Assembly (NCBI RefSeq): GCF_003340495.1
Contig: NZ_QASA01000001.1
Coordinates: 4,650,001 to 4,714,000, forward strand
Length of the DNA stretch: 64,000 nt
Origin: Adhaeribacter pallidiroseus
GTDB taxonomy: Bacteria; Bacteroidota; Bacteroidia; Cytophagales; Hymenobacteraceae
Direction of reading: 5' to 3'
This document shows, one piece after another, positions 29,993 through 36,595 of this stretch. The first letter of the stretch is position 1, and each line of letters opens with the position of its first letter. Under the pieces are notes generated by a model, which worked only from the letters and a program-made list of their open reading frames with translations, had not been told where the DNA came from and did not search any database. The position numbers and the translations under genes were made by a program.

Positions 29993-30034
29993 AAGCCCCG
30001 AATTACTATAGCCTCTTTCATTAATTCGGGGCTT
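29993..30034 (+). terminator. Intrinsic terminator
   Basis: 13-bp perfect stem AAGCCCCGAATTA (29993-30005) and complement (30022-30034), then a T-rich tail. It ends the T9SS cargo gene. Confidence 0.88.
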
Positions 30035-30234
30035 GTTTTTCTCTATTTTACAAACAAATTAAATAGTATTCAGGATTTGTCCAATCTCATCTAGATTCCA
30101 CCTTTTATCTGATAGCCTGATTTTAAAAAAATCATTAATGAGATGTAGTTGTTAATTTTTTAATCTTAAGCTTATTTTTAAATTTTTTATAAGATTCTAC
30201 CCTAAACCTCTGTTATTTATAAATACATTTGGTA

Positions 30235-30266
30235 TTTGCACAATAAGAATCATCGTGTTATCTTTG
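30235..30266 (+). promoter_or_regulatory. Promoter of the metH riboswitch leader
   Basis: Bacteroidetes-type promoter: -33 TTTG (30235-30238), 20-bp spacer, -7 TATCTTTG (30259-30266). The start of transcription would be a few bases later, right at the riboswitch. Confidence 0.75.
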
Positions 30267-30271
30267 CACCA

Positions 30272-30383
30272 CTTATCAAGAAAGACGGAGGGACTTGGCC
30301 CGTTGATGTCTTAGCAACCCTGGCTGGCAGGGTGCTACTTCCAGCCCCGAACGGTGCACACCGTGGGGGAAGATGAGGGTAGA
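30272..30383 (+). ncRNA. SAM-I (S-box) riboswitch upstream of metH
   Basis: S-box aptamer: CTTATCAAGA at the 5' strand, the conserved GGAGGGACTTGGCCCG core, the TTAGCAACC segment, GGTGCTACTTCC, and GAAGATGAGGG at the 3' end. P1 pairs CTTATC (30272-30277) with GATGAG (30372-30377), one G-U. S-box RNAs bind S-adenosylmethionine and turn methionine genes off. The distance to the metH ATG at 30478 is about 95 bases, holding the expression platform. Confidence 0.92.
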
Positions 30384-30417
30384 AAAGGCGTTTCGCCTGA
30401 AAAACTCAGCTCAAAAC

Positions 30418-30470
30418 TCTTGATAAGCAAAAAATTACGCCCTCCAGAAGGGTTAATCTTTTTTTGCTTA
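30418..30470 (+). promoter_or_regulatory. Predicted riboswitch expression platform hairpin
   Basis: TAAGCAAAAA (30424-30433) pairs perfectly with TTTTTGCTTA (30461-30470), with an inner CCCT/AGGG stem; it ends 8 bases before the metH ATG. TCTTGATAAG (30418-30427) overlaps its base and is the exact complement of the aptamer P1 strand CTTATCAAGA (30272-30281), so the two pairings are mutually exclusive. Whether it stops transcription or hides the start is not decided. Confidence 0.6.
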
Positions 30471-30477
30471 TAACACG

Positions 30478-33158
30478 ATGACACGCATAGAAGAAGAAGT
30501 AAAAAAACGCATCCTGGTGCTGGATGGCGCCATGGGTACGCAAATTCAAGGCTACCAACTCACCGAAGCCGATTACCGCGGCGAACGTTTCCGGGATTTT
30601 CCGCACGACCTAAAAGGCAATAACGATTTACTTTCCATTACCCGGCCCGATATTATCCGGGAAATCCACGCGAATTACTTTGCCGCCGGGGCCGACATTG
30701 CCGAAACCAATACGTTTAGCTCTACTACCGTGGGTATGGCCGATTACCACATGGAAGACTTGGTGTACGAACTCAATTACGAGTCGGCCAGAATAGCCCG
30801 GGAAGTAGCCGATGAATATACCGCGCAAAACCCGGATAAGCCGCGCTTTGTAGCGGGTTCCATTGGCCCGACCAATCGTACCGCTTCCATGTCGCCGGAT
30901 GTAAATAACCCGGCCTTCCGGGCCATTACCTACGACGAATTAGTAGAAGCGTATACCGGGCAGATTGAAGGTTTGATTGACGGTGGTGTAGATGCTTTAC
31001 TGGTAGAAACTATTTTTGATACACTCAACGCCAAAGCCGCCCTGTTTGCCATTGATCAATATTCGCAGCGCACCGGCAAACGCATCCCCATCATGGTATC
31101 GGGTACCATTACCGACGCCAGCGGCCGGACTTTATCGGGTCAAACGGTAGAAGCCTTCTTATTTTCTATTTCGCATTTACCTTTACTGAGCGTAGGTTTA
31201 AACTGCGCTTTGGGCGCGAAACAATTACGGCCGCACTTACAAACCCTAGCCAAAGAAGCGAAGTTTTACGTAAGTGCGCACCCGAATGCCGGTTTGCCTA
31301 ACGCTTTTGGCGAGTACGATGAAACACCGGAGCAAATGGCCGCGCATATCCACGATTTTCTGGAAAACAATTTTGTCAATATTATCGGGGGTTGTTGTGG
31401 CACGTCGCCGGCGCACATTAAAGCCATTGCCCAGGAAGCAGCTAAATATCCGCCCCGCGCTATTCCGCAATTACCCGCCTTACCCAAATTAAGCGGTTTA
31501 GAGCCGCTCACGATCTTCGAAGGTTCTACCTTTGTGAACATTGGCGAACGCACCAACGTAACCGGTTCCAAGAAATTCGCTCGGCTTATTCTGAATGAGC
31601 AATACGAAGAAGCTTTAGCTATTGCGCGCGAACAGGTAGAAAATGGCGCCCAGATTATCGACGTGAACATGGACGAAGGCATGCTCGATTCGGAGAAAGC
31701 CATGGTTCATTTTTTAAATTTAATTGCCTCCGAGCCTGATATTTCGCGCGTACCCATCATGATTGACTCCTCGAAGTGGAGCGTGATTGAGGCTGGTTTA
31801 AAATGTGTGCAAGGTAAAGGCATTGTTAACTCAATCAGCTTAAAAGAAGGCGAAGAAAAATTTAAAGAAATTGCCCGTAAAGTACTGAGTTACGGTGCGG
31901 CCGTGGTAGTAATGGCTTTCGACGAACAAGGCCAGGCTGATTCTTACGAACGCCGCATTGAAATCTGCGAACGCGCTTACAACATCCTGACCAAAGAAGT
32001 AGGCTTTCCGGCCGAAGACATTATTTTCGACCCCAATATACTCACCGTGGCTACGGGCATGGAGGAGCATAACAATTACGCCATCGACTTTATTAACGCT
32101 ACCCGCTGGATAAAAGAAAACTTGCCGGGGGTGCGCGTGAGCGGTGGGGTAAGTAACGTATCCTTCTCCTTCCGGGGTAATGATTTGGTGCGCGAAGCCA
32201 TTCACACAGTATTTTTATACCACGCCATTAAAGCTGGGCTGGACATGGGAATTGTAAATGCCGGCCAGATTGAGGTGTATGAAGAAATTCCGAAAGACCT
32301 GCTCCAGTTAGTAGAAGATGTATTGTTTAATCGCCGGCTCGATGCCACCGAGCGCTTGATTGAACACGCCGAAAAAATAAAAAACAAAGGCAAAGAAATT
32401 GTAAAAGACGAAGCCTGGCGCAACGCCCCCGTGCAGGAACGTTTAACGCACTCGCTGGTAAAAGGCATTACCGATTACATTGACATTGATATTGAAGAAG
32501 CCCGTCAGCAATACGAAAGGCCTTTGGAAGTAATTGAAGGTCCCTTGATGGCTGGGATGAATGTGGTAGGCGATTTATTCGGTGCCGGTAAAATGTTTTT
32601 ACCGCAGGTAGTCAAAAGCGCCCGCGTGATGAAAAAAGCGGTGGCGTATTTACTCCCGTTTATTGAAGCGGAAAAGGATAGAGTAGCAGCTTTGTTGCCC
32701 CACCCCCACCCCCTCCCCGGAGGAGAGGGGAGCTTTGCTGATAATTATGTTAAACCGATACCCCCTGAAAAATATACTAGGTTAAAAGAATTAGCGCGGG
32801 TGCATCGTAAAACCCCAACTAAAGCAGAGAATATACTATGGCAGGAGCTGCGGGGTAAGAAGTTGGATGGATTTAAGTTCCGGCGGCAACATGCTTTTGA
32901 AGACTATATTGTCGATTTTATTTGCCTAAAACAAAAATTAGTAATAGAAGTAGACGGCGAATACCACGAACAACAGCAGGAATACGACACACTTCGTACC
33001 GAATTCTTGCAAGGTTTAGGCTACCGGGTACTGCGCATCACCAACAACGAAGTAGAGCAAAACCTCCAAACGGTACTCCAAACTATAAAAAAGAACTCCA
33101 CAAAGAGCTATCAAAAGAAAACTCCCCTCTCCCCCGGGGAGGGGCCGGGGGTGGGGCC

Positions 33159-33186
<28 letters not shown>
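30478..33186 (+). CDS. metH: Methionine synthase MetH, N-terminal modules, with in-frame DUF559 nuclease insertion
   Basis: Cobalamin-dependent methionine synthase. Frame 30478-32696 holds the homocysteine domain (zinc cysteines in GLNCALG and GGCCGTSP), the folate domain (starting near [16 protein letters not shown]) and the B12 cap domain ([29 protein letters not shown] block). The same frame runs on without a stop through an inserted 461-bp element encoding a DUF559 nuclease domain and ends at 33186. Without the insert, this part (about 740 residues) plus the downstream piece (488) would give about 1227 residues, the size of E. coli MetH. The insertion is at the cap/Rossmann linker. A SAM riboswitch is upstream and metF downstream. 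Confidence 0.9.
32697..33157 (+). mobile_element. DUF559 nuclease element with 35-bp inverted repeats inside metH
   Basis: 461-bp insertion bounded by GC-rich inverted repeats at 32697-32731 and 33123-33157, matching at 32 of 35 positions (start GCCCCACCCCC, end GAGAGGGGA). Between them lies a complete DUF559 / Vsr-like PD-(D/E)XK domain: [32 protein letters not shown] and [12 protein letters not shown] carry the catalytic Asp and Glu-x-Asp. All of it is translated in the metH frame. No intein motifs, transposase or clear target duplication is seen. Similar nuclease genes flanked by such GC-rich repeats occur elsewhere in Bacteroidetes (recalled, not checked). Confidence 0.8.
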
Positions 33187-34622
<1,436 letters not shown>

Positions 34623-34636
34623 ATAAAATAAAATTA

Positions 34637-34728
34637 GAAATTATGAATTAGAAATTAGACTTGGCTCCGGAGCAAAAATTTAAAATTTTCGGCCATTTCT
34701 AATTTCTAATTTTTAATTCATAATTCCT
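34637..34728. repeat. AT-rich inverted repeat between metH and metF
   Basis: ATTATGAATTAGAAATTAGA near 34640-34660 is matched, with a small interruption, by TTCTAATTTCTAATTTTTAATTCATAAT near 34697-34724. It could form a long weak hairpin between the two genes, damping read-through, or be an intergenic repeat. Exact ends are approximate. Confidence 0.5.
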
Positions 34729-34731
34729 GAC

Positions 34732-35685
34732 ATGAAAGTAACCGAACATATCGCAAACGCGACAAAAACGCTTTTTTCTTTTGAGATTTTACCGCCGGTA
34801 AAAGGTACCAGCATCCAATCCATTTACAACGGCATCGACCCGTTGATGGAGTTTAAGCCGCCATTTATTAACGTTACTTACCACCGCGAAGAATACGTGT
34901 TTAAGGAACGAGAAAATGGCTTGCTCGAAAAAATCAGCATTCGCAAACGGCCGGGTACCGTAGGCATTTGCTCGGCTATTATGCATAAATACAATGTAGA
35001 TGCCGTACCGCATATTATTTGTGGAGGCTTTAGCCGGGAAGAAACCGAAAATGCCTTAATGGACCTTAACTTCTTGGGCATTGATAACGTGCTGGTTTTA
35101 CGCGGCGATTCTATTAAAACCGAAACCCAGTTTCGGCCGCATCCTGATGGACATGCATACGCATCAGATTTACTCAAACAAATTTGTGATTTGAATAACG
35201 GCAACTATCTGGACGAAGACATTGCCAACCCGGTGCCTACTAATTTTTGCGCCGGCGTAGCCGGTTACCCCGAAAAACACAGTGAAGCGCCCAATCTGGA
35301 AATCGATTTGAAATACCTGAAGATGAAAGTTGACATGGGCGCGCAGTACATCATTACGCAAATGTTTTTCGATAATCAAAAGTATTTCAACTTTGTAAAA
35401 GCTTGTCGCGAACATGGCATCAACGTACCCATTATTCCGGGCATTAAACCGCTTACCGTAAAGAACCAATTGCGCATGTTACCCAACTTGTTTCACATCG
35501 ATATTCCGAATGATTTAGTGCAGGCCATTGATAGCGCTCCAACGCCGCAAGCGGTACGCCAGGTAGGTATTGAATGGGCCACGCAGCAGTGTAAAGAGTT
35601 GGTTCAATTCGGGGTGCCTTGCCTGCATTTTTATACCATGAGTAAATCCGAGGCAACCGCCGCCATCGCCAAAGAAATTTTTTAA
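34732..35685 (+). CDS. metF: Methylenetetrahydrofolate reductase [NAD(P)H]
   Basis: Reduces 5,10-methylene-THF to 5-methyl-THF, the methyl donor used by MetH just upstream. The 317-residue length is normal. Family blocks are clear: FSFEILPPVKG at the N-terminus (catalytic Glu), NVTYHREE, GGFSREETENALMDL, NVLVLRGD (FAD pocket), and GAQYIITQMFFD. It follows metH by about 110 bp on the same strand, so the SAM riboswitch probably controls both if transcription reads through the inverted repeat. A strong terminator follows. Confidence 0.95.
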   Translation: MKVTEHIANATKTLFSFEILPPVKGTSIQSIYNGIDPLMEFKPPFINVTYHREEYVFKERENGLLEKISIRKRPGTVGICSAIMHKYNVDAVPHIICGGFSREETENALMDLNFLGIDNVLVLRGDSIKTETQFRPHPDGHAYASDLLKQICDLNNGNYLDEDIANPVPTNFCAGVAGYPEKHSEAPNLEIDLKYLKMKVDMGAQYIITQMFFDNQKYFNFVKACREHGINVPIIPGIKPLTVKNQLRMLPNLFHIDIPNDLVQAIDSAPTPQAVRQVGIEWATQQCKELVQFGVPCLHFYTMSKSEATAAIAKEIF

Positions 35686-35706
35686 AAAATTCTTTTGAGT
35701 TCTATC

Positions 35707-35744
35707 AAAGGCCAGTTGACTTTCCCGTTAACTGGCCTTTTTTG
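35707..35744 (+). terminator. Intrinsic terminator of the methionine operon
   Basis: 11-bp perfect stem AAAGGCCAGTT (35707-35717) and complement (35730-35740), 12-base loop, followed by T-run. Confidence 0.9.
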
Positions 35745-35866
35745 TTTTCTAACAGTTTTAAGTTGACCCAAGGAAATATTCTTGCTTAATGCTGGATTAA
35801 GAACCAACACAACTTATAGTGAGCATTAAAAGTACTGGTGTATACCATCATCATCAAACTAGTTTT

Positions 35867-36595
35867 ATGCTGCAACAATTTCTGGAACGTGCCATTCCCT
35901 CTTGGGAATTAATCTGGCAACTCGGTCCGTTTATTTTTGGGTACGTGTTGGTAGTAGCTTTATTGGTTTCGCATTTAAAAAAGCAGCACCGGGTACGCAC
36001 AGCTTACACTCGTAAAATTTTTCATTTTTTAATTTTTTCTACCGCCAGCATTTTTCAGGTAAAGTACGGTTTACCCGCGGTTATATTGTTTGGCAGTATT
36101 GTAAGTTTATTCGTGTTATATGCGGTATTTAAAGGCGACCACTTCCCCTTCTACGAGGTAATGGCCCGGCAATCCGACCGGCCACATCGTACTTTATTTA
36201 TTTTAATACCTTTAATAACTACTGCCCTAGGTGGCGTTCTATCAAACCTCTTTTTTTTAAAATTTGCCTTCATCGGCTATCTGGTAGGTGGCTGGGGCGA
36301 TGCCGTAGGCGAGCCAGTGGGTTCGCGCTGGGGCAAACACCGCTACCAGGTGCCATCGTTGCTGGGCGTAAAGGCCACTCGTAGTTTAGAAGGCTCCGGC
36401 GCCGTAGCATTTGTGAGTATCGTGGTGGCTTTTCTGGGGCTTTACTTTATTGGCTATCCGTTATCAAATTGCTTAAAAACCGCGGTTGTTTGTGGACTAG
36501 GCGGTGCCGCTATTGAATCAGTCAGCAACCACGGCCTCGATAATTTAACCATGCAGCTTACGGCAGCTGGTCTGGCTTATTGGCTATTAGCTTAA
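35867..36595 (+). CDS. Phytol/dolichol kinase-like membrane protein
   Basis: Integral membrane protein of about 242 residues with seven or so hydrophobic segments, in the phytol kinase / dolichol kinase / CDP-diglyceride synthetase-like superfamily. The signature RKIFHFLIFS after the first segment, the GGWGDAVGEPVGSRWGKH motif (Asp/Glu near the nucleotide site) and SLEGSGAVAF are all present. The ATG at 35867 is preferred over the GTG at 35819 because the segment from it begins the membrane domain. Isoprenoid alcohol phosphorylation is the family activity; the actual lipid is unknown. Confidence 0.82.
   Translation: MLQQFLERAIPSWELIWQLGPFIFGYVLVVALLVSHLKKQHRVRTAYTRKIFHFLIFSTASIFQVKYGLPAVILFGSIVSLFVLYAVFKGDHFPFYEVMARQSDRPHRTLFILIPLITTALGGVLSNLFFLKFAFIGYLVGGWGDAVGEPVGSRWGKHRYQVPSLLGVKATRSLEGSGAVAFVSIVVAFLGLYFIGYPLSNCLKTAVVCGLGGAAIESVSNHGLDNLTMQLTAAGLAYWLLA

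Follow-up and report, generated by a model that had tools for sequence, protein, structure and literature searches.

A palindrome-bounded DUF559 nuclease element in the metH gene of Adhaeribacter pallidiroseus, probably one copy of a widespread in-frame passenger

The stretch of the Adhaeribacter pallidiroseus genome analysed here (64,000 nucleotides, hereafter the window) contains a methionine synthase gene, metH, which spans 30478-34622 on the plus strand and is preceded by a SAM riboswitch (30270-30379, plus strand; Rfam RF00162, 71.8 bits, E 7.5e-16). The host gene comes in two pieces. Its N-terminal half (30478-32669) encodes the Hcy methyltransferase, pterin-binding and B12 cap domains (PF02574, PF00809 and PF02607) and is, up to 32669, 88.5% identical to the gene of the same-genus genome L017. 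The C-terminal half (33168-34622) encodes the B12-binding Rossmann and activation domains (PF02310 and PF02965) in a frame that is -1 relative to the N-terminal half. Profile searches of the genome (three contigs, 99.97% complete) found no MetE catalytic domain and placed the sole Met_synt_B12 domain in the interrupted gene. The initial annotation, made from the sequence of the window, had named a second complete metH or a metE as evidence against its own reading; none was found, which leaves the interrupted metH as the genome's one methionine synthase in these searches. Further downstream lies a gene that we take to be an MTHFR-like metF (34732-35685). The space between it and metH holds an AT-rich inverted repeat (34632-34728, with arms at 34636-34659 and 34705-34728, 92%), which is of a different kind from the arms described next.

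Between the two halves, at the cap/Rossmann linker of MetH, sits a DUF559 element (32697-33157). Its boundaries are the 35-bp inverted repeats reported in the initial annotation (32697-32731 and 33123-33157), which match at 32 of 35 positions. Extended to 40 nt, the left arm (32697-32736) and the right arm (33118-33157) match at 36 of 40 positions; neither contains a stop codon in any of the six frames, and the left arm is itself an imperfect hairpin. A search pattern for the arm hairpin, with three mismatches allowed, gives four matches in the window (two places, each on both strands), compared to 0.02 expected in shuffles. Between the arms lies the DUF559 domain (32779-33093, plus strand), a PD-(D/E)XK nuclease domain of the Vsr/EDxHD type with its conserved residues kept. 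It is indeed intact and open in the frame of the N-terminal half (PF04480, E 6.4e-38; 129.4 bits against a curated cut-off of 20.6), so that the N-terminal half and the nuclease together occupy one open reading frame of 902 amino acids (30478-33186). The insertion length of 461 and the deficit of one base given earlier are both correct.

The insertion is not as clean as had been supposed, since approximately 27 nt to the left and 10 nt to the right of the arms are also non-homologous to same-genus genomes. The left stretch (32670-32696) has no counterpart in same-genus empty alleles, and its peptide DRVAAL resembles that of filled alleles from a Rufibacter-type genus; the right stretch (33158-33167, SRYA) is as in those same filled alleles. 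The native linker of same-genus genomes, QPGDESKN, is missing. Because the flanks are of same-genus type up to 32669 and again from 33168, we rejected the idea that a long tract of metH had been co-converted from the other genus. A clean target-site duplication was seen neither in the window copy nor in a second filled gene (genome G139, discussed below), the linkers having been rebuilt; in the G139 element a palindromic GGCC at both ends belongs to the arms and is indistinguishable from a duplication. In terms of known machinery, Pfam scans of the window ORFs and of 18 host ORFs (E 0.001) contain no intein/Hint family, and an Rfam scan of 30000-36000 (E 0.1) returns the SAM riboswitch and a sub-threshold CyaR match only. 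With no splicing domain or intron module in these scans, an intein or intron reading was dropped. The element also lacks a recognised transposase, its Pfam matches being DUF559 and the related MTES_1575 only.

As sequenced, the window copy leaves metH out of frame by one base. The initial annotation had looked for the frame change at 33120-33160; comparison with intact copies places it upstream, at an A6-G run (33087-33093, with the A6 run itself at 33087-33092), where the frames of the two halves part. A frameshift within the right arm was discarded in favour of this run, as the right arm read in the C-half frame yields an 18-residue peptide in the frame of intact Rufibacter-type copies (TPSPRERGQGGEVSRYAGR, TPSPRGRGQGSGASRFAGK). 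The A6-G run, read in the frame of the N-terminal half, is A AAA AAG, which has the form of a -1 slippery heptamer. Neither arm folds better as RNA than its shuffles (z -0.58 and 0.06), and the RNA that begins at the A6 run and includes the right arm is similar (z -0.41). Values this near to shuffles give no support for a frameshift-stimulating RNA structure.

Selection on the two halves bears on how this break is to be read. Compared with L017, the nearest relative examined, dN/dS is 0.019 for the N-terminal half and 0.018 for the C-terminal half. Compared with L016 and L018, the C-terminal half reaches 0.035 and 0.039 and is less constrained than the N-terminal half; it is likewise the less constrained half between empty relatives (0.030-0.051). 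Since the C-terminal half shows no decay relative to L017, it does not appear to have been released from selection for long, and the frameshift may be a very recent change or loss, a sequencing error, or a break bypassed by slippage at A AAA AAG. One could also propose that insertion and frameshift destroyed metH and that methionine is now taken up, as the frame is broken by one base and neither a second metH nor a MetE was found. We consider this highly doubtful, given a C-terminal half that is constrained like the N-terminal half in the L017 comparison, an intact SAM riboswitch, and an insert that leaves metH open in other genomes.

The MetH linker was compared across 120 family genomes, among the matches listed. 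DUF559 is absent from the linker in all seven same-genus genomes, among the matches listed, where the empty linker was read directly in L016, L017 and L019-L021, by alignment in L018 and from the match end only in L022; the empty sites that the initial annotation had proposed to look for in close relatives are thus present. In the Rufibacter-type genus the linker holds DUF559 in 3 of 16 genomes and lacks it in 13 (again among the matches listed), and the three filled genomes (G062, G037 and G022) have intact ORFs of 1385-1440 amino acids. Filled alleles of both genera have RVAAL and SRYAGK or SRFAGK beside the arms in common. These arm-adjacent residues (RVAAL, SRYAG) hint at common descent or at transfer of a filled linker.

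More widely, 7 of the 10 DUF559-bearing MetH ORFs of named genomes are filled at the cap/Rossmann linker, the linker hosts being Flavobacterium, Maribacter, Aquimarina, a Cytophagia MAG and Rufibacter. Other arrangements around MetH were also seen. One MetH (L116:2146-6321) carries DUF559 inside its Hcy methyltransferase domain, elsewhere than the linker, and an arm-like peptide without a nuclease at its cap/Rossmann linker. At four Hymenobacter-type loci (L074, L075, L076 and L081) a DUF559 element is fused to the MetH C-terminus, and in several other genomes a DUF559 lies on the contig that has the MetH cap match, approximately 2 kb further downstream (among the matches listed).

The arrangement at metH recurs in many genes and taxa, mostly in frame. 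At least 176 of 204 family genomes have a DUF559 match. Flanking arms (score at least 30) accompany 46 of the 49 family loci examined, which comprise the 29 best matches and 20 loci (L071-L090) picked for long open frames. Among named genomes we analysed the best 80 of at least 560 confirmed candidate loci, so that the following fractions are no survey. Bacteroidota account for 71 of these best 80, and Pseudomonadota, Cyanobacteriota, Chloroflexota and two candidate phyla are also represented. The ORF that contains DUF559 is at least 300 amino acids long at 65 of the 80, and at 57 the same ORF continues for at least 100 amino acids on both sides; at the remainder it is near the N end (5), near the C end (4) or alone (14). 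An inverted-repeat score of at least 30 was obtained at 47 of 78 loci (two of the 80 were dropped because their flanks were too short), whereas random placement within these loci reached that score once in 1024 trials; no arms are detectable at the other 31.

Hosts in the family scans include repair and DNA-acting proteins (RecG, UvrA, Mfd, a RecB-like helicase, an AddB-like PD-(D/E)XK protein, RecQ and RecO), as well as MetH, LeuRS, IleRS, MazG, chorismate synthase, a PurQ-type amidotransferase, a DegT aminotransferase and adenine deaminase. In the LeuRS and IleRS cases that were mapped, the sequence on either side of the domain aligns collinearly with the host, and a few insertion positions recur. 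A Gracilibacteria MAG locus (L096, scored alone) would also be in frame, in a presumably RecG-like gene, if TGA is read as glycine. In plasmid records (Azospirillum, Synechocystis and Deinococcus) the match begins at the arm-coded peptide, and phage records gave four weak DUF559 matches, none covering more than 80% of the query. The genome of Rickettsiales AM-377-L16 carries DUF559 in frame at two loci (L111 and L143), in Mfd and in a second protein, presumably ValRS-like; the same two proteins contain extra, nuclease-less palindromic peptides. In the available portions of the open-licence literature searched, we found no description of DUF559 elements inside proteins. One study reports that, in Legionella, segments carrying DUF559 together with a transposase are hotspots of recombination (PMC12308824).

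The nuclease itself is conserved. Twelve columns are invariant in the 80 sequences, including D46, E57, H63 and D70, which we infer to be putative catalytic residues. For DUF559 pairs at the same site, dN/dS by a simple counting method is 0.06-0.20 in 14 of 19 pairs (the other five were set aside because dS was saturated), which shows purifying selection on the nuclease for same-site copies elsewhere. An AF2 model of the domain built from the 80 sequences has a pLDDT of 89 (40.7 when predicted without an alignment). In Foldseek this model retrieves 3hrl, a DUF559 protein (E 4.1e-9), the homing endonuclease I-Bth0305I (5.8e-5) and, more weakly, Vsr (0.027); a sequence profile also reaches I-Bth0305I with hmmsearch (E 1.1e-6). 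By both sequence and fold, the catalytic domain is homologous to that of EDxHD homing endonucleases. PADLOC matches a homing-endonuclease model only (E 3.6e-6), and PHROGs gives weak matches only.

This degree of conservation raises the question of whether the nuclease was recruited and now serves the cell inside its host proteins, the arms being relics of insertion. Such a domesticated fusion would fit the purifying selection in same-site pairs and the 12 invariant columns, the several DNA-acting hosts (RecQ, RecG, RecB-like, UvrA, Mfd and RecO), and the RecG copies of Flavobacteriaceae, which form one clade with little trace of arms. It sits badly with the many metabolic and translational hosts (MetH, PurQ-type, LeuRS, IleRS, MazG and chorismate synthase), with patchy presence among close relatives (among the matches listed) and with arms that look fresh in many copies. 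We therefore regard it as improbable.

Evidence on movement comes from the nuclease tree (125 domains, with three duplicates left out) and from filled and empty relatives. Host labels change 46 times on the tree, against a mean of 93.6 when shuffled, that is, copies are clustered by site. The tree is weakly resolved, with 14 of 121 inner branches starred, and for the MetH-linker copies it neither supports nor excludes a single origin. Two starred clades contain host changes: RecB-like copies fall within LeuRS copies of Flavobacteriaceae (97*), and RecB-like copies group with AddB-like ones (96*). The two hosts of the one Rickettsiales genome also group together (88). Moreover, at the RecB-like site genome G139 is filled, in frame, with an ORF of 1368 amino acids, and its close relative G135 is empty, with an ORF of 1158; their flanks are 93.2 and 94.5% identical (among the matches listed). 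G176, slightly more distant, is filled, so that G135 may have lost the element, the element may have been gained twice, or recombination may have taken place. Taken together, host changes within nuclease clades and filled and empty relatives support past mobility, as judged from sequence comparison.

At the RecB-like site, seven of the nine DUF559 copies examined are in frame and two are broken by the element: G176 (L190), where a G-run of the right arm is off by one base, and G154 (L219), on both sides. As the G176 break shows, the window copy is not alone in having a single-base change within a run of the element. Such a break could be a sequencing error, or could reflect switching of the host gene via slippage in the arms.

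Inheritance at a given site is nevertheless partly vertical, since nuclease distance tracks host distance at the MetH linker (Mantel r 0.78, n=9 without the window copy), in LeuRS (r 0.51) and in RecQ (0.46); for IleRS the correlation is not significant (r 0.34, p 0.063). Could the whole pattern at metH then go back to an old insertion in the family ancestor, followed by many losses and immobile since? The correlated distances and the arm-side linker residues that filled alleles of both genera have in common are what one would expect. Yet under this history the element must have been lost from all seven congeners and, in the other genus, from 13 of 16 genomes (among the matches listed), with a linker restored each time; in the nuclease tree the window copy does not group with the Rufibacter-type copies, and hosts change elsewhere. 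On balance we find it unlikely. The initial annotation had itself named the same insert at the same place with a non-mobile history as grounds for abandoning its reading: the first part is seen, in that Rufibacter-type relatives are filled at the same linker, and the distances there point to a partly vertical history; the patchy presence (0/7 and 3/16, among the matches listed) and the host changes in supported nuclease clades speak against a purely static one.

The arms also occur beyond metH in the same genome, where we found 10 hairpin arms (control 0), comprising the metH pair, nuclease-less pairs and solo arms. One solo arm (G000:C1:6247637-6247670; L009, L181) is in frame in a gene that we take to encode methylmalonyl-CoA mutase, adds 8 residues net and is absent from all seven same-genus relatives. 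Separately, the genome has a second, stand-alone DUF559 gene (G000:C1:4815202-4815507, L002), 50% identical. That nuclease-less pairs and solo arms share a genome with the element would suit a scheme in which DUF559 is cargo and another enzyme (e.g. a REP-type transposase) moves the palindromic repeats. Against this, DUF559 lies between arms in several phyla and is kin of a homing endonuclease, and we give the cargo scheme a small chance.

We conclude that 32697-33157 is probably a copy of a widespread, mobile, palindrome-bounded DUF559 element, which persists as an in-frame, non-splicing passenger domain. The core of the initial reading, a nuclease that survives as a non-splicing extra domain at tolerant linkers, recurs across genes; one point against it is that the window copy itself is frame-broken as sequenced. 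In the mechanism that we propose, the putative nuclease would cleave either the arms or an empty target, whereupon repair would place a copy of the element in an empty allele or at a new site. Insertions that are out of frame or that break the fold of needed genes would be lost, leaving in-frame linker copies, which in needed genes would then be hard to delete. Arms readable in every frame would allow the element to be read through in its host gene.

If this is right, a selfish nuclease in a gene has a third lifestyle, neither intron nor intein, as a tolerated extra domain, and residence in needed proteins would shield it from deletion. It would also account for proteins annotated as DUF559 fusions, and provide, in aminoacyl-tRNA synthetases, MetH and repair enzymes, a natural collection of loops into which a folded domain of ~110 residues fits. 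We know of no mover of the nuclease-less, Rickettsia-type in-frame palindromes, and the element would be a candidate mover for in-frame palindromic elements. More tentatively, and with rather less than even confidence, we suggest that the elements form a class distinct from inteins, introns and insertion sequences, and are the autonomous parent of those Rickettsia-type palindromes. The co-occurrence of DUF559 with nuclease-less palindromic peptides in the same Rickettsiales proteins bears on this last suggestion.

How does the element compare with known systems? Like DNA transposons or insertion sequences it has terminal inverted repeats, and unlike them it has no recognised transposase. With REP/REPIN elements and MITEs it shares hairpin arms and miniature copies without a nuclease; REPs are moved by Y1 (HUH) transposases, whereas none was seen in the DUF559 element. 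Inteins with homing nucleases likewise occupy recurrent sites and keep their nuclease in the frame of a conserved and often essential protein, but no splicing domain was found in the DUF559 element and its passenger stays in the host. The EDxHD endonuclease I-Bth0305I (PDB 3r3p) has a related catalytic domain and is, according to PMC3943268, intron-encoded, whereas the DUF559 element is palindrome-bounded and translated within a host protein. DUF559/Vsr-like endonucleases (PDB 3hrl, and VsrA of Caulobacter, for which PMC12907096 proposes a role in mismatch repair) belong to the same domain family and differ in being stand-alone proteins. The Rickettsia palindromic elements (RPE) and other in-frame bacterial MITEs are, according to PMC2229807, likewise palindromic, non-splicing and found in conserved genes as well as between genes. 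These are ~100-200 bp long and non-autonomous, whereas the DUF559 element is 461 bp with its own nuclease, and its class is mainly from Bacteroidota. The RPE-type trait of lying in frame in conserved genes is present in the class, with the window copy one base out. Altogether, Rickettsia-type palindromes that lie in frame are already known, as are the homing nucleases that inteins carry in frame; the non-splicing, palindrome-bounded nuclease passenger, not found in the portions of the open literature searched, appears new by that comparison and has a real chance of being a class of its own.
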